Shown piece after piece: positions 10,619 to 59,107 of a DNA stretch of 64,000 nucleotides. The stretch is from Streptacidiphilus jiangxiensis (GTDB lineage: Bacteria > Actinomycetota > Actinomycetes > Streptomycetales > Streptomycetaceae). The notes under the pieces were generated by a model, which worked only from the letters and a program-made list of their open reading frames with translations, was not told the DNA's origin and ran no database searches. The position numbers were made by a program, and so were the translations under genes. Each line of letters begins with the position of its first letter. Positions within the stretch are counted from its first letter, which is position 1. The stretch covers positions 557,280 to 621,279 of the forward strand of contig NZ_FOAZ01000002.1 of assembly GCF_900109465.1 (NCBI RefSeq), written 5' to 3'.

Positions 10619-11862
10619 CAGCTGACCGGCAGGGATGCGACGCCGGTGATCAGTCGCCCGGAGGTGCGCGGCACCTGCTCGGCGGGCACGGCCAGCCGCA
10701 GCGTCGGGAAGCGCTCGAAGAGCGTCCACAGGGCGATCTGCAGCTCGGCCCGGGCCAGTCCGGAGCCGAGGCAGTAGTGGATGCCGTGGCCGAAGCTCAG
10801 GTGGGCGTTGAGCGGACGGTCCAGCTCCAGCCGTTCCGGCTGGGCGAAGCGGGCGCCGTCGCGGTTGCCGGAGCCCAGCGAGGGCAGCACCGCCTCCCCG
10901 GCCCGGATCAACGTCCCGCCCAGGTCCACGTCCTCGACGGCGATCCGCAGCAGCGTCTCGTCGCCGGGCAGGTGCAGGCGGAGCAGCTCCTCGACGGCGG
11001 CGGGCACGCCGTCGGGGTCGGCCCGGAACCGGTCCGCCTGCCCGGGCTCGGCGAGCAGGGCGAGGACGCTGTTGCCGATCTGGTTGACCGTCGTCTCGTG
11101 GCCGGCCACCAGCAGGCTCACGCCGAGGAAGAGCAACTCCTGCTCGCTCAGCCGCTCCTGGTCGCTGTCGCGGACGGAGACGAGCGCGGAGAGCAGGTCC
11201 TCCCCCGGGTTCCGGCGCTTCTCGGCGTACAGGGAGGCGAAGTAGTCGCGCAGCGCGGCGATGGCCCCGAGCATCTCCTCCGCGGTACTGCCCGTGGTGG
11301 CGACGAACGCGCCCGACCAGGCCGTGAACCGCTCCTGATCCGCCTGCGGCACGCCCAGCAGCTCGCAGATCACCCGCACCGGCAGTGGGAAGGCGAGGGC
11401 CTGGACGAGGTCGGTGGTCCGGCCGTCGGCCTCGCCTCGCGCCGCCATCTCGTCGAGCAGGGCATCGGTCAGCTGCTGGATCCGGGGCCGCAGCGCGGCC
11501 ACCCGGCGCGCCGTGAACTCCCGCGAGACCAGCGCCCGCACGCGGGCGTGCTCGGCGCCGTCGAGATTGGGCAGGCTCGGGAAGCGCTGCGGCGCGGCCG
11601 CCAGCCGCGGGGCGCCCTCCGCGAGCGTCGCGGCGCGGCTGAAGCGCGGGTCGGCGAGCACCGCGCGCACCTCGTCGTAGGTGGTGACCAGGTGGGCACT
11701 GTCCCCGCTGGGCATCCGCACCCGGGCGACGGGCTGCGTCTCGCGCAACCGCGCGTAGTGCGGGCAGGGGGTGAGCGCGTCGGGGCGCGGGAACGGGTAC
11801 GGGATCGGCTCCGCCCCGGTCCCGGCCTCGGCCTCGGGCTCGGTCATCTGCTCTGTCGTCAT
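10615..11862 (-). CDS. Cytochrome P450
   Basis: A 415-residue bacterial class I P450. The oxygen-binding I-helix motif is AGHETT, the K-helix ExxR is EELLR, and the haem-binding loop is FGHGIHYCLGSGLAR with the ligand Cys at about 364. It lies in the terpene operon, overlapping the terpene synthase stop codon (ATGA), so oxidation of the cyclised terpene is the natural guess. Electrons could come from the reductase at 19425-20471. A second in-frame Met five codons later is an alternative start. Confidence 0.93.
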   Translation of the reverse strand: MTTEQMTEPEAEAGTGAEPIPYPFPRPDALTPCPHYARLRETQPVARVRMPSGDSAHLVTTYDEVRAVLADPRFSRAATLAEGAPRLAAAPQRFPSLPNLDGAEHARVRALVSREFTARRVAALRPRIQQLTDALLDEMAARGEADGRTTDLVQALAFPLPVRVICELLGVPQADQERFTAWSGAFVATTGSTAEEMLGAIAALRDYFASLYAEKRRNPGEDLLSALVSVRDSDQERLSEQELLFLGVSLLVAGHETTVNQIGNSVLALLAEPGQADRFRADPDGVPAAVEELLRLHLPGDETLLRIAVEDVDLGGTLIRAGEAVLPSLGSGNRDGARFAQPERLELDRPLNAHLSFGHGIHYCLGSGLARAELQIALWTLFERFPTLRLAVPAEQVPRTSGRLITGVASLPVSW

Positions 11863-13037
11863 CGCGCGTTCGCCTCCCGGAAGGGCGTCGGTCGGCCCGG
11901 GCGGAACGCCGGGACGGGCAGTCGGGCGGCCTCCTCGAGGGCGGCCTCCGTCTCGGCGGTGGGGCCGAGGACGACGGTGCGGTCCCGGTGGAGGACGAAG
12001 CGGCCGTGGGTCAGGCCGGTCCAGACGTGGCCCGCGCCGAGATAGCGGCTGGACATGTACTGCCACAGCAGCACCCCGGAGACGAAGTGGCTCATCTCGT
12101 CGAGGAACGCCCGCACCGCCGGGTCGGCGCCCGCCTCGCCGACGAGGATCCCGTCGCGGCAGCGGATGAACTCGTCCTCGCGCCGCTGCGCCAGTCGGGC
12201 GGCGGTGCCGATCGCCGTCTGCAGGTCGCAGCCGGTGTCCGCGCGCACGGCCGCGACCACGTTCATCGGGTCGTCGTGCAGCAACACCTCCTTGCGGTAG
12301 GCGACCACGTCGTTGGCGAAGCAGGTCTGCTCCAGGGCGATGTCGACGAGCGTGCCCAGCTCCGGGTGGAGCGCGAACTGCTCGGTCAGGTCGATGCCGA
12401 GGCCGTACTCGCACATCAGGAACACCCAGTGCATCCCCGAGCAGGCGTAACGGATCTCGAGGTACTCCTCGTAGCCCAGGCGTTCACCGCGGGCGCGGGC
12501 CTCGTCCTCGCGGCGGAAGCCGTCGATGGTGAAGTCGACGCAGGCCAGGAAGCGCCGCCACTGGCCCGGCGTCATCCGCGACCGGAGCCGGTCCCCCACC
12601 TCGGCCAGCACCGTCCCGTAGGGCGGGAGCGAGCCGCGGTCGGCGCCGTGGGCGGCGGCGGCGAGCATGGCGTAGAGATCGGGGAAGCCGCCGACATGCC
12701 GACGCGGATCGCCCTCCGCGCACAGGTCGTCCAGGGCGAACCAGGTGAGCTCCCAGTCGCAGATGTCGGCGAGGCGCTCCGGTTCGGCGCGGGAGTAGGA
12801 GAGCGCGGTGTAGAGCGCGTACCGGTGGTCCAGGAACCGGTCCAGTGCGGCGTCGTCGGGGAACATCGGGCGCAGGTGCCGCCGGGCCCAGCGGTCCGTG
12901 CGCTGCTCCAGCCAGACCAGCGCCGGGTTGCAGCGGGAGCTCAACCGCCGCACCAGTGGCGGCACCTGGACCGAGAGCGGAGCGTCCGGCGCCACGGCGG
13001 AGGCGTCCGGGAGCGCGGGGCGGGCGGTGGTCACCAT
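11859..13037 (-). CDS. Class I terpene synthase (cyclase)
   Basis: A 392-residue class I terpene cyclase. The first metal motif is DDLCAE (D103, D104, E108). The second is NDVVAYRKE (242-250), in which the usual Ser/Thr metal ligand is Ala246. A pyrophosphate-sensor Arg is probably R196 (EIRYACSG), and the C-terminal RY pair is in SSRYLG. The gene overlaps the upstream prenyl diphosphate synthase, so it probably uses that enzyme's product. Chain length (C15 or C20) cannot be read from the sequence. The ATG at 13037 has GAGGAG eight bases upstream. A tail of about 55 residues rich in Pro/Glu follows the RY motif. Confidence 0.9.
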   Translation of the reverse strand: MVTTARPALPDASAVAPDAPLSVQVPPLVRRLSSRCNPALVWLEQRTDRWARRHLRPMFPDDAALDRFLDHRYALYTALSYSRAEPERLADICDWELTWFALDDLCAEGDPRRHVGGFPDLYAMLAAAAHGADRGSLPPYGTVLAEVGDRLRSRMTPGQWRRFLACVDFTIDGFRREDEARARGERLGYEEYLEIRYACSGMHWVFLMCEYGLGIDLTEQFALHPELGTLVDIALEQTCFANDVVAYRKEVLLHDDPMNVVAAVRADTGCDLQTAIGTAARLAQRREDEFIRCRDGILVGEAGADPAVRAFLDEMSHFVSGVLLWQYMSSRYLGAGHVWTGLTHGRFVLHRDRTVVLGPTAETEAALEEAARLPVPAFRPGRPTPFREANAR

Positions 13038-47399: not shown

Positions 47400-48293
47400 T
47401 CAGCCGCCGACGGGCAGCCCCAGCTGTCGCGTCGCGGCGGTGACCGTCTGCTCCAGCAGCACGGCGATGGTCATCGGCCCGACGCCGCCCGGGACGGGCG
47501 TGATCAGGCTCGCGCGCTCGCGTGCCGTCTCGAAGTCCACGTCGCCGACGTTGCCGGGGTTGTAGCCGGCGTCGACGACGACCGCGCCGGGCTTGACGTC
47601 CGTCCCGGCGATCAGTCGGGGTCGGCCGACGGCGGCGACCACGACATCGGCCTCACGCACGAGTGCGGGCAGGTCGCTGGTCCGCGAGTGGCAGTAGGTG
47701 ACCGTCGCGTCCTGCCCGAGAAGCAGCATGCCGACCGGCTTGCCCAGGATCGCGCTGCGGCCGACCACGACGGCGTGCTTGCCCGCGAGGTCGACGTCGT
47801 AGGCGTCGAGCAGCCGCATGATGCCGCCGGGCGTGCAGGAGACGAAGCCGGGCAGCCCGAAGCCCATCGCGGCGAAGGAGTGCATGGTCACGCCGTCGAC
47901 GTCCTTCTCCGGCGCGATCGCCTCGAACGCGGCCCGCTCGTCGATGTGCGGCCCGACGGGGTGCTGCAACAGGATGCCGTGCACGTCCGGGTCGGCGGAG
48001 AGGACGGCGACGGCGTCGACCAGCTCGGCGGTGGAGACGGAGGCCGGCAGGGCGACGTGGCGTGAGCGGATGCCCGCCCCGGCGCAGCGGTTCTGCTTCA
48101 TCCGGACGTAGGTGACCGAGGCGGGGTCCTCACCGACGAGGACGGTGGCCAGGCAGGGGGCCGTTCCGGTGCGCCGCAGCAGGTCGGCGGCGGCCTCCGT
48201 GGTCTGCTGGACAAGGCGGCGGGCGAGGCCGGTGCCGTCCATGAGGTTGTCGGTGGGCCGGGTCTTCTCGGAGTTCTGGGTCGTCGTGGACAT
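47400..48293 (-). CDS. folD: FolD: methylenetetrahydrofolate dehydrogenase/cyclohydrolase
   Basis: A 297-residue bifunctional enzyme that interconverts 5,10-methylene-, methenyl- and 10-formyl-THF. It has the Lys-bearing SVTYVRMKQ segment, ILLQHPVGPHIDERAAFEAIAPEKDVDG, and the NADP-binding VVGRSAILGKPVGMLLL. GGGAG lies seven bases before the ATG. Its leader holds a ZTP riboswitch, so expression should rise when ZMP/ZTP signals a shortage of 10-formyl-THF. Confidence 0.95.
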   Translation of the reverse strand: MSTTTQNSEKTRPTDNLMDGTGLARRLVQQTTEAAADLLRRTGTAPCLATVLVGEDPASVTYVRMKQNRCAGAGIRSRHVALPASVSTAELVDAVAVLSADPDVHGILLQHPVGPHIDERAAFEAIAPEKDVDGVTMHSFAAMGFGLPGFVSCTPGGIMRLLDAYDVDLAGKHAVVVGRSAILGKPVGMLLLGQDATVTYCHSRTSDLPALVREADVVVAAVGRPRLIAGTDVKPGAVVVDAGYNPGNVGDVDFETARERASLITPVPGGVGPMTIAVLLEQTVTAATRQLGLPVGG

Positions 48294-48464: not shown

Positions 48465-50531
48465 TCAGGCGAGGGCCGCGATCTCGTGGGCGATGTCCTC
48501 GTCGTCCGGGGCGTTCTCGGCGGCGCGACGCAGTTCGGCCAGGGCCTCGGCGGGGCGGCCGGCGTCGCGGTGGACCAGGGCGAGGTTGTAGCGCAGGGCC
48601 GGGTCCTGCGGGTCGAGGGTGACCGCGCGGGTCAGGTCCTCGGTGGCCAGGGCCAGGTCGCCCGCCGCGTAGGCGACGCCCGCCCGGCCGGAGAGGGCGA
48701 TGACCAGGTCGGGGTCGGCCTTCAGCGCGCGGTCGTAGGAGGCCCGGGCGGCGGGCAGGTCCTCGGTCTCGACGTGGTACTGGCCGAGGACGGCGTGGAG
48801 GTAGGGGTTCTCCGGGTCGTGACGCAGGCCGGCCAGCGCGTCCTCGCGGGCCGACTCCAGGTCGCCCGCGTCCAGCAGCAGTCCGGCCCGGTTGACGTAG
48901 GCGTCCACGAAGTCGGGCTGCAGGTCGAGCACGTAGCTGAAGTCGGCGAGCGCGCCGTCGACGTCTCCCTCGCCGAACCGCAGGTCGCCGCGGTTGTAGT
49001 AGATCTCCGGGAACGGCGGCGAGAGCCGCAGGGCCTTCGCGTAGTCGGCGAGCGCCTCCTCGCTGCGGCCCAGCCGCCGCAGGATCGTGCCGCGTTCGAG
49101 GTGGTGCTCGGCGTGGTTGGGGTCCTCGCGGATCACGACCTCGTAGTCGGCGAGGGCGTCGTCGAGACGGCCCAGCGCGAGGTAGACGCGGGCGCGGTTG
49201 TTCTTGAGCACGGAGCGGTGCAGCACGTGCGAGTCGTCCGGCAGCAGCCGGTCCAGCATGTCGATGCACTCGTCGACCAGGCGCAGCGCCTCCTGCGGCG
49301 CACCGAGGTTGACCTCCACCAGCGCCAACCCGTTGCGGTAGAAAGCACTCTGGAAGGCCCGCTCGTGCGGGTCCTCGATCAGCGAGGCGGTGGCGATGGC
49401 GGCGTTCAGCCAGGACTTGGCCTTGCGCTGGTCGCGGCGCTCGGGGTCGTTGTGGCGGGTGTAGAGCATGGCCGTCGAGTAGGCGGCGTTCATGTGCACG
49501 CCGGGCTTGGTGGAGTGGAAGCGGGCCTGGTCGTCCATCAGTTCCGCCTCCTCCGTCCGGCCGAGGATGGAGAGGGCGAGCGTCGTGCCCTTGGCGAAGG
49601 CCCACCAGCGGTCGTGCTCGGTGACGGCGTCGACCAGGGCGAGACCGCGCTGCCCGTACTCGACGCAGGCGGCGTAGAAACCCAGGCAGAGGCAGTGGTC
49701 CATGGCGTGGAAGACGGCCTTCACCCCGGCCTCGCCCGGCTCGCTGCCGTGCTCGCGGTGGTGGGCGAGCGCGCCGACGCGCAGCGACTCCTGGTCGAGC
49801 GCCTCGATCTGCTCGGCGCGCCGGTCGTGCAGGGCCGCGCGGGCGGCGGGGTCGAGGGCGAGGTACGCGGCGAGGTCGGCGGGCTCGTCGCTGACGCAGT
49901 CGGCCATCACGTAGTCGGCGGGGTCGAGCACACTCTCCTCGGTGGCGGCGGCGACCTCGACCAGGACGGCGTGCTCGCGCAGCACGGCGAGCAGGTCCGG
50001 GTCGGCGGGCTCCTGCTGCGGCATGCAGATCACGACCTGGAGCCGGGCCGGATCGACCCGGCGCACCAGATTGGCCAGGAACTCCAGATCGGTCGGGTCG
50101 GCCTGGTCCACCTGCTCGACCACGACGGTGCGCAGGCCCTCGCCGGCGGCGGCGTCGTGGACGAACTCGACCAGGCCGTTGCCGATGCGGACCGTGCGCA
50201 GCCGGGCGTAGTAGCGGGTGCGCTCGGCGGGGATCGCCATCGAGGTCAGGGTCTCGCGGGAGTTGGGCACCAGGTTGTGCAACTCCGGTGCTGCCGACAG
50301 CAGTTCGATGTCATAGCGGCCGACGAGCGCGGGGTCGCGGGGCAGGGTGCCGGGCACCAGGGCGCGGGCGAGCGTCCCGGCGGCGGTGAACGGGCCGCGC
50401 AGCCGGCGGTGGGCGTCGACGACGAGGGTGTCGGGGGCGTCGAGCGAGATCCCGAGGCCGAGCAGCGCCCGGCTCCGGTCCCGACGCAGCCCGCCCCGAA
50501 GCCAGTAGTGCGGGCGCGCGGACTGGTTCAT
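48465..50531 (-). CDS. TPR protein with degenerate ATPase-like N-terminus (RiPP-like operon)
   Basis: A 688-residue protein. Residues 1-300 look like a STAND/LuxR-type ATPase core without a P-loop: RLRGPFTAAGTLARALVP, then VVVEQVDQADPTDLEFLANL as a Walker B-like strand and RLQVVICMPQ. Residues 320-688 are about ten TPR units (for example AEHHLERGTILRRLGRSEEA and FVDAYVNRAGLLLDAGDLE). It follows the membrane protease by 77 bases and is probably the third gene of the peptide operon, where it may act as a scaffold or carrier. I do not recognise a characterised homologue. Confidence 0.75.
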   Translation of the reverse strand: MNQSARPHYWLRGGLRRDRSRALLGLGISLDAPDTLVVDAHRRLRGPFTAAGTLARALVPGTLPRDPALVGRYDIELLSAAPELHNLVPNSRETLTSMAIPAERTRYYARLRTVRIGNGLVEFVHDAAAGEGLRTVVVEQVDQADPTDLEFLANLVRRVDPARLQVVICMPQQEPADPDLLAVLREHAVLVEVAAATEESVLDPADYVMADCVSDEPADLAAYLALDPAARAALHDRRAEQIEALDQESLRVGALAHHREHGSEPGEAGVKAVFHAMDHCLCLGFYAACVEYGQRGLALVDAVTEHDRWWAFAKGTTLALSILGRTEEAELMDDQARFHSTKPGVHMNAAYSTAMLYTRHNDPERRDQRKAKSWLNAAIATASLIEDPHERAFQSAFYRNGLALVEVNLGAPQEALRLVDECIDMLDRLLPDDSHVLHRSVLKNNRARVYLALGRLDDALADYEVVIREDPNHAEHHLERGTILRRLGRSEEALADYAKALRLSPPFPEIYYNRGDLRFGEGDVDGALADFSYVLDLQPDFVDAYVNRAGLLLDAGDLESAREDALAGLRHDPENPYLHAVLGQYHVETEDLPAARASYDRALKADPDLVIALSGRAGVAYAAGDLALATEDLTRAVTLDPQDPALRYNLALVHRDAGRPAEALAELRRAAENAPDDEDIAHEIAALA

Positions 50532-50608
50532 CTGAGTCTCCCTGGGGGCGAGGGCGGGCCGGAGGGGGTGCGGTGCGGAGTCGGTCCTGAGCGGTCGGGC
50601 GCGGGAGG

Positions 50609-51844
50609 TCAGACCGAGGCGGGAGCGGCGCCGGAAGCGGCGGCCTGATCCGCGCCTCGGCGCCGCCGCCCGCGCGCGGCGAGGTACCCGGCGAGGGCCA
50701 GCTCGCCGAAGTTCAGCACCAGGAAGACGCACACGTCGGTGACGTTGAGCACGGAGGTGTCGCGCACCAGCTTGTGCAGGGCGAGCTCGGTGATCCGGAT
50801 CGCGGCCGGCAGCATGACGGTGAAGGCCAGCACGGTCAGCAGCGTGTAGCCGCCCACCATCAGCCACACGTACCAACGGGCCACGCTGCGGTCGCGCGGG
50901 GTCCAGCTCTCCGGGTCGACCAGGCCCTCGCGGCGGCCCAGCAGCGTCCGGACCCGGTTCTGCAGCAGCTGCCGGGAGACCGTCTGCAGGTCGTTGCAGC
51001 CGAGGACGGTGGTGGCGAGGAAGTACAGATCGGTCCGGAGGAAGAAGTAGAACTGCCAGGCGAGCCGCATCAGCGTGCCGAAGGCCATGGCGAGCAGGAA
51101 GCGTCCGGTCAGGCCGGCCGCGCCGGTGTGGGTGACCAGCGGGGCGGCGGCGAGACTCAGGCCGCAGACCACGACCACGTCCACCCCCATGCCGGACAGC
51201 ATCGGCAGGTACCGCTTGCGGCGCGGCACCGCGACGAGCCCGTCGAGGGAGGTGAGGAAGACCAGGTAGTAGAAGCGGCGGCCGATCCGCAGCGTGGAGT
51301 TGAGGCCGAGGCGGCGTCCGGCGAGCGCGTGCGCGCCCTCGTGCAGCAGGATCCAGGGCAGTTGGCCGAGCACGTTGCCCGCGGTCAGCGCGACCAGCGA
51401 GGAGGTGGTGAAGAACAGGTTCTGGTACTGCGGGGTGACGTGGGCGTCCGTCGACATGACGACGATCCCGGCGAGGGTCACCGCCGCGTACAGGCACCAG
51501 GCGGGCCAGGAGAAGACCGCCTGGGCCAGCCGCCGCCAGCGGATCACCGGCGCCTCGGCGACCTGCTCGCCCTCGGGCACCAGGAGCTCGAACTCCTCCA
51601 GGACCTCCAGGAACTCCAGCATGTCGACGCTCTCGCCGTACTGCTGCTCGTACCAGCGGGCGGCCTCGTTGGGGCTCACCCCCTCCTCCAGCCGGCGCAG
51701 CAGGGCGGCGCCGTCGGCGGGGAAGAGGCCGTAGCTGTCGATGTCGGCCCGGCCGACCGTGACCTCCTCCCCCTCCTCCAGAAAGGTCAGGGGGTAGAGT
51801 CTCAAGGGCTGGTCCAGATCAACCGCGCTTCCGTCCACGGACAA
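50609..51844 (-). CDS. Membrane HExxH metalloprotease (M50-like) with PqqD-like N-terminus
   Basis: A 411-residue membrane protein. The first 90 residues resemble a PqqD/RRE-type winged helix (LFPADGAALLRRLEEGVSP...ESVDMLEFLEVLEEFELLVP). After that come about seven to eight TM helices; one contains LLHEGAHALAGRRLG, a zinc HExxH motif inside a helix as in site-2 proteases, and LSGMGVDVVVVCG could give the third ligand Asp. Such proteases with a peptide-binding domain are found with modified peptides. It lies about 100 bases after a 30-residue peptide gene, separated by a hairpin, so it may cleave or export that peptide. Confidence 0.8.
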   Translation of the reverse strand: MSVDGSAVDLDQPLRLYPLTFLEEGEEVTVGRADIDSYGLFPADGAALLRRLEEGVSPNEAARWYEQQYGESVDMLEFLEVLEEFELLVPEGEQVAEAPVIRWRRLAQAVFSWPAWCLYAAVTLAGIVVMSTDAHVTPQYQNLFFTTSSLVALTAGNVLGQLPWILLHEGAHALAGRRLGLNSTLRIGRRFYYLVFLTSLDGLVAVPRRKRYLPMLSGMGVDVVVVCGLSLAAAPLVTHTGAAGLTGRFLLAMAFGTLMRLAWQFYFFLRTDLYFLATTVLGCNDLQTVSRQLLQNRVRTLLGRREGLVDPESWTPRDRSVARWYVWLMVGGYTLLTVLAFTVMLPAAIRITELALHKLVRDTSVLNVTDVCVFLVLNFGELALAGYLAARGRRRRGADQAAASGAAPASV

Positions 51845-51880
51845 CCACCTGCCACCTCGTCGGGGTCGGCTCCAAGGGCC

Positions 51881-51915
51881 CCGGTCCGGGCCGCATTACG
51901 GGCGGCCCGGACCGG
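51881..51915 (-). terminator. Attenuator-like hairpin between peptide and protease genes
   Basis: CCGGTCCGGGCCGC pairs perfectly with GCGGCCCGGACCGG around a seven-base loop. No U-run follows. The position, after a short peptide gene and before its processing genes, would allow more peptide than enzyme. Confidence 0.65.
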
Positions 51916-51949
51916 TCTTACCGGTGTCTCACCTGGGAATGACGCAGCG

Positions 51950-52042
51950 TCAGGCGAGGACGGGGCCGCCGCCGCAGTAGCAGGCGGAAGCAGCCGAGGT
52001 CAGCCGAACGGTGCCGGCCTTGCGCACGGTGATCTTCTTCAT
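51950..52042 (-). CDS. Putative RiPP precursor peptide, 30 residues
   Basis: A 30-residue peptide with a basic leader-like start (MKKITVRK), a central VRLTSAASA and a C-terminal ACYCGGGPVLA with two Cys separated by Tyr and a Gly3-Pro stretch. AAGGAG lies seven bases before the ATG, one of the best ribosome sites in the window, and a TTGACA promoter is placed about 177 bases upstream of the peptide start. It has no hydrophobic signal peptide. The protease and TPR genes follow on the same strand. A modified, cleaved C-terminal core is likely, but no modifying enzyme such as a radical SAM or YcaO is present in the operon. Confidence 0.7.
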   Translation of the reverse strand: MKKITVRKAGTVRLTSAASACYCGGGPVLA

Positions 52043-52406
52043 GGTGCTCTCCTTAGAGCCGGTGACGCCATCCCGGGCGCGGACGCGACCGGGCCCCCGG
52101 GCAGAGCCCGGGAGATCGAGGCGGGGCGGGAACCCCTTGCGCAGGTGGGTCTGTGAAGAAGGTGCGGTGAAACCGTGTGTGAACCGGTGGAGTTGTGGAT
52201 GCACCGTCACGGGCGACGAGATTTGCATGCACCTGACGGGGTGTCAATATGCCACCCCTTCAGTCGGATCGGCCGAATTGTCATGTCCTGATCCTTCGAA
52301 AACGGACGGTGCCGTCCCAGTCGGCCCCGTGGGACAACGGGACCGCCGAACGAACGGTCAGTCGTCCTCTCGACGGCGTAGACGAATCACTCCGTCGGCC
52401 CGGTGT
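52043..52406. other. 364-base intergenic region before the peptide operon
   Basis: This gap holds the minus-strand promoter of the peptide gene and a leader of about 170 bases. The leader includes the stretch GGGCCCCCGGGC with a nearby complementary GAGCCCGGG, which may fold. I see no further gene in it. The other end lies downstream of the secreted Ig-like gene. Confidence 0.5.
52219..52247 (-). promoter_or_regulatory. Promoter of the peptide operon
   Basis: TTGACA on the minus strand (52247-52242) and AAATCT (52224-52219) are 17 bases apart, a good fit for a principal-sigma promoter. It points at the peptide gene with a leader of about 170 bases. Confidence 0.55.
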
Positions 52407-57934: not shown

Positions 57935-59107
57935 GTGTTCGGAATCATCAGGCCTTGCCGGCATCGGCTGGGCGAGCGGTTGTTGGAGAGCTGGACGGCC
58001 CATCTGTGCGGGCTCTGCCTGGCCTTGCGCGACGGGCACGGCCAACTGGCCCGCACCGCCACCAACTACGACGGGCTGATCGTCTCCGTCCTGGTCGAGG
58101 CGCAGACGGCGAGCCGCCCCGACGCGCGGCGCACGGCCGGCCCCTGCCCGCTGCGGGGGCTGCGCACAGCGCCCGTCGCCCGCGGCGAGGGGGCCAGGCT
58201 GGCCGCGGCGGTCTCGCTCGCGCTGGCGTCCGCCAAGATGCGCGACCATGTCGACGACGCCGACGGGGTGTTCGCCCGCCGGCCGGTCGCGGTGGCCGCG
58301 GGCGGCGTCGCGGAGCGGTGGCGCCGGCAGAGCCGCTCGGCGGGCACCGCCCTGGGCTTCGACCCCGAGGTGCTCTTCGCCTCGCTGTCGCGGCAGGCCG
58401 AGGTCGAGGCCGCCGCCGGGATCGGGTCATCCGTGCTGCTGGTCACCGCCCCCACGGAGGAGGCGACGGCGCTGGCCCTGGAGCACACCGCCGTCCTCGC
58501 GGGCCGTCCGGGCAACCGGGCGCCGCTGCGCGAGGTGGGCCGCTACTTCGGGCGCCTCGCCCATCTCCTGGACGCGGTCGAGGACCTGACCGAGGACCAG
58601 GCCAACGGCGCCTGGAACCCCCTGGTCGCCACCGGCACCTCGCTCGCCGAGGCCGAGCGCCTGTGCCGCGACGCGGTCCACGGCATCCGGCTCGCCCTGG
58701 CCGAGGTCGAGGTGACGGACGGCGCCCTGGTGCACCGCCTCCTGGCCCACGAGACGGACGCGGCCGTCGGCCGTGTCTTCGGGCACGCCCAGGCGCACGG
58801 CAGTCGCCAGGACTGGACGCCGCCGCCGATGGGCCCGAACCCGTTCGGTCAGCCGGGGATCTTCCCGCCCCCTCCGCCCGCGCCCACCCGTCGCAACCCC
58901 CTCGTGGCCTGCGGCCTGTGGGCGGTGCTGTGCTGCACCTGCCAGGCGTGCTGCCGCGAGGAGTACGAGAATCCGTGCACGGGTCGACGGATGCACGGCC
59001 CGTGCCGCGACTGCGACTGCGATTGCTGTGACTGCGGGGATTGTTGCGAGTGCTGCGACGGCTGCGACGGCTGTGATGGGTGCGACTGCTGCGACTGCAG
59101 CTGCTGA
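57935..59107 (+). CDS. DUF5685 protein with a Cys-rich C-terminal tail
   Basis: A 390-residue protein. The first 300 residues match DUF5685: FGIIRPCRHRLGERL, HLCGLCLALRDGHGQ, a PCPLRGLRTAPVARGEGARLAAAVSLALASAK block and GRLAHLLDAVEDLTEDQANGAWNPL. The remaining part starts with a Pro-rich linker, then WAVLCCTCQACC, and ends with about 35 residues in which Cys alternates with Asp, Glu and Gly in CDC, CCDC and CDG repeats. Such a tail could bind metal ions. The GTG at 57935 has GGAGG about nine bases upstream. Function unknown. Confidence 0.85.
   Translation: MFGIIRPCRHRLGERLLESWTAHLCGLCLALRDGHGQLARTATNYDGLIVSVLVEAQTASRPDARRTAGPCPLRGLRTAPVARGEGARLAAAVSLALASAKMRDHVDDADGVFARRPVAVAAGGVAERWRRQSRSAGTALGFDPEVLFASLSRQAEVEAAAGIGSSVLLVTAPTEEATALALEHTAVLAGRPGNRAPLREVGRYFGRLAHLLDAVEDLTEDQANGAWNPLVATGTSLAEAERLCRDAVHGIRLALAEVEVTDGALVHRLLAHETDAAVGRVFGHAQAHGSRQDWTPPPMGPNPFGQPGIFPPPPPAPTRRNPLVACGLWAVLCCTCQACCREEYENPCTGRRMHGPCRDCDCDCCDCGDCCECCDGCDGCDGCDCCDCSC

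Follow-up and report, generated by a model that had tools for sequence, protein, structure and literature searches.

Daptides, the closest described relatives of the system considered here, are actinobacterial peptides that were discovered through the fusion of a RiPP recognition element (RRE; RiPP, ribosomally synthesised and post-translationally modified peptide) to a site-2 protease, MpaP, and their short precursors share a conserved leader motif and sometimes occur several to a cluster (available text of PMC10036551). The lasso peptide B proteins also join an RRE to a leader peptidase (PMC7470986, in the text available). The membrane-bound M50 proteases EpeP, of the epipeptides, and TglG and TmoG, of the pearlins, set RiPP products free, with cleavage and export both proposed for EpeP (PMC10885120, likewise in part). 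A three-gene cassette is described here from a 64,000-nt stretch of the Streptacidiphilus jiangxiensis genome (contig NZ_FOAZ01000002.1, positions 557,280 to 621,279), referred to as the window, in which the minus strand encodes a 30-residue peptide, a 411-residue M50-like membrane protease with a predicted RRE and a 688-residue tetratricopeptide repeat (TPR) protein. We call it a RiPP-type family built on a predicted RRE-site-2 protease and accompanied by a TPR protein.

The cassette shares with the daptides the fusion of RRE and site-2 protease (in the cassette by predicted fold), the actinobacterial host and the short precursors with a conserved leader, sometimes several per locus. It differs from them in having a TPR partner, and neither the daptide leader motif ELExMEAP nor the invariant C-terminal Thr was seen in any of 99 cassette precursors, for which reason membership of the daptides was rejected. 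MpaB, MpaC, MpaD and MpaM were not recognised in the neighbour scan, which took one member from each of 20 families recurring in at least four loci, with four-locus families mostly unscanned and rarer neighbours not annotated. The predicted fold of the cassette RRE is closest to lasso B1-leader complexes and its plan is that of the lasso B proteins, but its protease is of the membrane M50 type; lasso cyclase C and the transglutaminase-like B2 protease were not recognised among the recurring families scanned, no model search having been made for them. Epipeptide and pearlin pathways carry other modification enzymes. Compared with EpeP, TglG and TmoG, to which it is likened by its predicted role, the cassette protease is fused to an RRE and accompanied by a TPR protein. 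The word tetratricopeptide is absent from the text searched of the 2025 RRE survey (PMC12710340) and of the RRE-Finder paper (PMC7470986), the literature searched yielded no paper with the leader strings of the family, and no description of a peptide-M50-TPR cassette was among the literature matches listed, which covered few subscription papers.

Recurrence of the three genes and the predicted protease

The precursor, RRE-M50 and TPR genes are strictly co-located. About 15 kb were extracted around 99 of the 139 places found in a family-level search and around one place from another draw, the remaining 40 places being excluded; the second cassette of S. jiangxiensis was added to these. Duplicate loci (L003-L009, L012, L013), loci with neither a TPR gene nor a matching precursor (L136-L145, L015, L017), 13 of the 20 loci from the other-families set (L157-L169; L158 and L017 are one and the same locus) and L170, a repeat of L014, were removed before counting. 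In the 105 distinct loci compared, the TPR gene lay directly downstream of the M50 gene in 93 and did not in 12, and all 93 M50-TPR loci had an upstream precursor, 91 recognised by motif and two by eye (L134 and L014). Precursor and TPR gene were both present in six of six loci from other families. When 101 genomes were drawn, 51 of 53 precursor matches and 56 of 57 TPR matches adjoined an M50 match, the exceptions being two weak peptide matches and one TPR fragment. The peptide/M50/TPR order, whose recurrence the preliminary description had named as the check on its operon, is thus found in dozens of actinobacterial genomes.

The family-level search covered 394 genomes and gave M50 relatives in at least 99 of them, at no fewer than 139 places, while a class-level draw gave them in at least 17 of 394 genomes and a phylum-level draw in at least 4 of 396; these counts are lower bounds because four candidates were scored per genome in most genomes. 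M50-TPR pairs were counted in 34 genomes and numbered one in 21, two in 7, three in 4 and four in 2. S. jiangxiensis itself has a second cassette on contig C75, with an M50 protein 49% identical to that of the window and a peptide of its own, MKKIAIRKAGSVRLTSSASALYGGCGCPA. The best named relatives of the window M50 protein belong to Streptacidiphilus anmyonensis, S. melanogenes and S. neutrinimicus (88-93% identity), and in the named genomes a peptide started 163-227 nt upstream of the M50 match at eight of eight loci.

The preliminary description of a membrane HExxH protease with a PqqD-like N-terminus agrees with the predicted model, in which the N-terminus has the bbb-aaa order and matches an RRE, the leader-binding domain expected of a RiPP pathway. 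The HExxH motif and D272 are invariant in 93 aligned homologues, and the zinc motif and the third-ligand Asp of an M50 site-2 protease both lie in predicted membrane helices. The start codon is uncertain, and the database version (P0004) has 398 residues. Neither Pfam nor NCBIfam has a family for the protein at E<=1, an M50 profile matched no PDB sequence up to E 1, and the TPR repeats are the sole part of the cassette named by Pfam and NCBIfam. A defence system was rejected as a candidate, since PADLOC gave no match to the M50 protein and weak generic matches only to the TPR protein; PHROGs likewise gave no match to the former and families of unknown function only for the latter. Coordinates are collected in Table 1.

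Table 1. Positions of the cassette features in the window
Feature	Position	Strand	Basis
Precursor gene, 30 residues, MKKITVRKAGTVRLTSAASACYCGGGPVLA	51950..52042	-	ORF, conservation, synonymous differences
Leader, residues 1-15	51998-52042	-	Alignment of precursors
Variable core, residues 16-30, with C21, Y22, C23	51953-51997	-	Alignment of precursors
AAGGAG ribosome-binding site of precursor	52049..52054	-	Direct reading
Promoter-like island: TTGACA (52242-52247), 17-nt spacer, AAATCT (52219-52224)	52219..52247	-	Conservation
Hairpin between precursor and M50 gene, 14-pair stem, 7-nt loop, no T tract	51881..51915	-	Folding, conservation
Predicted RRE + site-2-protease-like membrane metalloprotease, 411 residues from TTG	50609..51844	-	ORF, predicted model, alignment
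Predicted RRE (PqqD-like) domain, residues 12-91	51572..51811	-	Predicted model
HExxH zinc motif, H168 E169 H172	51329..51343	-	Invariant in 93 aligned homologues
TPR protein, 688 residues: degenerate AAA_16-like N-terminus (~1-215), TPR superhelix (~228-688)	48465..50531	-	Pfam, predicted model

Leader and core of the precursor

Pfam and NCBIfam hold no family for the peptide. Its gene differs from that of S. anmyonensis in six codons, all of them synonymous with no nonsynonymous change, and from those of two other species in 5-6 synonymous and 2 nonsynonymous codons; the third positions of leader codons drift across loci. Because these substitution patterns are mostly synonymous, the 30-residue open reading frame (ORF) is probably translated and its leader appears to be under selection at the protein level. 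A chance ORF was rejected on the synonymous differences and on the presence of a short ORF upstream of the M50 gene in 93 of 93 and a further 6 of 6 loci, and the proposal that a 30-residue peptide ending in ACYCGGGPVLA is a gene therefore holds, conserved counterparts included.

In most members the leader reads MKKI.[VI]RK.G.[VI][RK]LT and is near-constant, and it is followed after LT by a hypervariable tail of 9-24 residues (99 loci, 107 precursors, 82 unique tails; the same set underlies the tail counts below unless another is given). The window tail is SAASACYCGGGPVLA; others are SSASALYGGCGCPA, SAARALYLPWSCAVQN, SAACQCPYSVNA, SASSQYGTWPWC, TAACHMYPAA and SAAYYCCSF. Two to four tandem precursor genes stand upstream of the M50 gene in L064, L065, L087 and L080, mostly with related but different cores, although L065 has two with the same core among its three. 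A short ribosomal precursor with a conserved leader and a variable core, a general mark of RiPPs, is found throughout. Conservation had been expected around the CYC region next to a variable core: the division into conserved and variable parts was recovered, but the conserved part is the N-terminal leader. CYC was rejected as a conserved motif, the tails keeping only the presence of Cys and Tyr.

A hairpin had been noted after the peptide and is confirmed, its stem being kept in four of four Streptacidiphilus species. The fold of the 105-nt spacer of the window is weak evidence alone (z -1.74, with 12 of 200 shuffles equally good), and in the 87 loci that match the strict leader motif and whose spacer measures 50-400 nt the peptide-M50 region folds better than its shuffles (30 each), with a median z of -2.8 and 60 of 87 below -2. 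A short ORF with Cys and Tyr codons near its end and a hairpin before the next gene would suit a cis-acting attenuator, an upstream ORF in which these codons respond to tRNA charging and thereby regulate the M50-TPR operon. It is however the N-terminal amino-acid sequence that is conserved, with synonymous drift, the tandem copies have their own starts and the partner protein carries a predicted leader-binding RRE, and attenuation is accordingly regarded as very improbable.

Cys and Tyr are each present in all 82 unique tails; apart from them only Ala is universal, and Glu is absent. Their order and spacing are free, with spacings from 1 to 16. Letter shuffles of the first 75 tails retained both residues in a mean of 40 tails and at most 51, and when related tails were collapsed to 19 clusters both residues occurred in 19 of 19 (shuffle mean 11.1, maximum 17). 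That tails otherwise free should require both residues suggests that these serve some chemistry, in its boldest version a Cys-Tyr bond. An intrapeptide disulfide, previously offered as one possible fate of the two Cys of the window peptide, was rejected as the general product, since only one Cys occurs in 39 of the first set of 75 unique cores. Both residues could also act unmodified, the Cys thiolate and Tyr phenolate of the freed core binding copper or iron as a small metallophore with no covalent change. The universality of the two residues, their free spacing and order and the absence of a modification enzyme from most cassettes are in keeping with metal binding; set against this, a single Cys and a single Tyr whose spacing ranges from 1 to 16 are ill suited to a common mode of chelation, and the 20 recurring neighbour families scanned include no metal transporter, which leaves it highly unlikely.

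The Tyr may be tied to the third gene. L158 holds a two-gene relative with a protease 34% identical to that of the window and no TPR gene, and its precursor-like peptide MKKLVVRKLEPIKTSANADCVPAAA, located some 190 to 117 nt upstream of the M50 match, has Cys and no Tyr, which suggests that the Tyr requirement goes with the TPR protein. Three further loci without TPR gene (L160, L166, L168) have leader-like upstream ORFs that, by eye, contain neither Cys nor Tyr. As a separate observation, the distant RRE-M50-like proteins (about 30% identical; L136-L145, L015, L157, L159-L169) have neither a TPR gene nor an MKKI-type precursor, and many of them sit behind a ThiF-like protein, the one scanned also having a weak PaaA-like N-terminal match.

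Accessory enzymes and the proposed pathway

The preliminary description had found no known modification enzyme. For the window cassette this stands, none that is recognised adjoining it, but it does not extend to the sister cassettes. A flavin reductase gene directly follows the TPR gene in 27 of 93 cassettes (two members scanned are PF01613, the rest assigned by similarity), and since the seven genomes scanned have only 5-10 PF01613 genes each, the association is not due to chance. In L134 the TPR gene is directly followed (10723-12639, plus strand) by a gene for a RiPP maturation radical SAM C-methyltransferase, TIGR03975 (603 bits, cut-off 282); in six other genomes the nearest PF04055 match among those listed is about 12 kb from the cassette.

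A PF02441 flavoprotein gene is the nearest upstream gene, divergently oriented and 40-1080 nt from the M50 match, in five loci (L010, L106, L112, L131, L132), whose cores all end in Cys: SSASLYSPDGC, SSAPLYCTDCC (twice), SPASYILTVC and SPASYVLVVC. Such C-terminal-Cys cores occur in 8 of the 93 loci; of these, 5 have the flavoprotein, which is absent from the remaining 85 loci (hypergeometric 1.1e-6, uncorrected for kinship). The cassette flavoproteins carry PATANT or PATAHT and P.MN..MW stretches, which we take to be signatures of Cys-decarboxylating flavoproteins. In the 394 genomes searched, the flavoprotein had matches of at least 55% identity at six places, four of them beside these cassettes and two beside other genes; one of the latter adjoins LanKC, a class III lanthipeptide synthetase (680 bits against a cut-off of 575), and the other a protein that resembles it on reading. 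In Avi(Me)Cys RiPPs, PF02441 flavoproteins oxidatively decarboxylate a C-terminal Cys, and the rule of a flavoprotein beside a Cys-ending precursor given in the available text of PMC11162475 applies to 5 of the 93 sister loci; these may be among the 1172 pairs listed in that paper. The rule does not extend to the window cassette, whose core ends in PVLA, and no lanthipeptide synthetase was recognised among the recurring neighbours of the five flavoprotein loci. Two observations concern the surroundings of such genes: L179 (5707-10424, minus strand) and L180 are class III lanthipeptide clusters with LanKC, a related flavoprotein and an MFS-type transporter (L180 by reading only), and a LuxR-family regulator with an AAA_16 domain (cluster F12) lies near the five flavoprotein loci and L121.

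The flavoprotein and the L134 enzyme slightly increase confidence in a RiPP reading. A pathway in which the RRE binds the near-constant leader and the site-2-protease-like domain cuts off the Cys/Tyr tail is the probable explanation of the cassette, and the operon first suggested on the window alone is supported by the same gene order, conserved leader and variable core elsewhere. In such a pathway the leader would dock on the RRE domain of the M50 protein, which would be expected to bind MKKITVRKAGTVRLT, the protease would cut just after the LT.A boundary and a core of roughly 6-21 residues would leave at the membrane, as proposed for EpeP, while the TPR superhelix might act as a maturation partner that holds the core until it is released. 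For cores of the C-terminal-Cys subset, decarboxylation of the last Cys by the flavoprotein would give an enethiol. The least certain part is a redox modification of the universal Cys and Tyr, such as a bond between the two, in which the flavin reductase might take part. If the pathway is right, the family is a widespread RiPP type that is undescribed in the literature searched, its core tolerates great sequence change while retaining Cys and Tyr, the cassette fits on one plasmid and the flavoprotein-bearing branch offers a predicted mass change.

The most far-reaching form of this pathway would be a new RiPP class whose hallmark is an obligatory Cys-Tyr crosslink. The TPR protein, lacking a P-loop, would then itself be the maturase scaffold on which any core is folded around one Cys and one Tyr, reduced flavin would drive the oxidative bond and the RRE-site-2 protease would release and expel the macrocycle, with the flavoprotein-derived enethiol joined instead in the C-terminal-Cys branch. 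We hold this to be quite unlikely as it stands; were it true, three genes would make up a core-tolerant macrocyclisation system.

The TPR partner, upstream signals and neighbouring genes

The model of the TPR protein (pLDDT 93.5, pTM 0.90) has a superhelix from about residue 228. Eight N-terminal pieces of 250 residues were searched, of which five, that of the window included, matched the rear part of AAA_16 only, with scores under the curated threshold (best E 1.3e-4); the other three gave no match. The Walker A motif GxxxxGK[ST] was found in none of 93 TPR proteins (the window and 92 loci, one locus with a frame of 39 residues being excluded). The earlier view of an ATPase-like N-terminus without P-loop is borne out, and the domain resembles a STAND-type ATPase that has presumably lost nucleotide binding. 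A structure search (VIA) with the TPR model returned only TPR repeats among the matches listed, so that its result concerns the TPR part. In the window protein Pfam gives only TPR and the sub-threshold AAA_16 piece, with no helix-turn-helix (HTH) or phosphatase domain.

Core distance was correlated with sequence distance within TPR residues 341-540 beyond the effect of the M50 protein (partial r ~0.20, Mantel-type test, 69 loci with distinct cores), and was uncorrelated with the TPR N-terminal domain or the last repeats in the same test. A contact between the core and the central part of the superhelix is hinted at, a result that is suggestive at most as relatedness inflates tests of this kind.

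The TPR protein is also the basis of the chief rival to the RiPP pathway, peptide signalling, according to which the protease frees a pheromone, modified or not, the TPR protein is a receptor like those of the RRNPP group or of Agr and the pseudo-ATPase domain gives the signal output. RRNPP systems and, in the source text available, Agr likewise have a short variable peptide and a membrane protease in one locus, to which the RRNPP systems add a TPR protein. The hypervariable peptides adjoining a TPR protein, the up to four different cassettes per genome and the tracking of the central repeats by core distance all fit signalling, as does the lack of a recurring exporter among the neighbour families scanned. 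Unlike the RRNPP receptors, though, the TPR protein of the window contains a remnant of AAA_16, and Pfam found in it neither an HTH nor a phosphatase domain; no shared target gene is nearby, and a flavoprotein beside C-terminal-Cys cores points to peptide chemistry. On balance signalling is judged unlikely. Either the TPR protein or an enzyme encoded elsewhere would perform new chemistry in the RiPP pathway, or the cassette would be an actinobacterial peptide-sensing system.

Upstream of the precursor, the strong ribosome-binding site reported earlier was read directly as AAGGAG. The promoter ascribed to the peptide gene fared less evenly: a consensus scan called none upstream, but a 30-nt block with the promoter-like island of Table 1 differs by one base among four Streptacidiphilus species whose flanking sequences have diverged. 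This block, which contains TTGACA, the inverted repeat TGAC-N5-GTCA and GCATGCAAAT, is possibly a promoter with an operator.

Downstream of the window cassette lies folD (47403-48290). Near 14, 13 and 13 of 94 loci, respectively, are an XRE-like family, a SARP-type regulator (PF03704) and an ImmA/IrrE-like HExxH family (for example L050, L051 and L054; L047-L146 set), the XRE-like and ImmA/IrrE-like names being a reading of the sequences. Farther along the window, an ORF at about 58800-59107 on the plus strand ends in an extreme run of Cys, Asp and Gly, CDCDCCDCGDCCECCDGCDGCDGCDCCDCSC.

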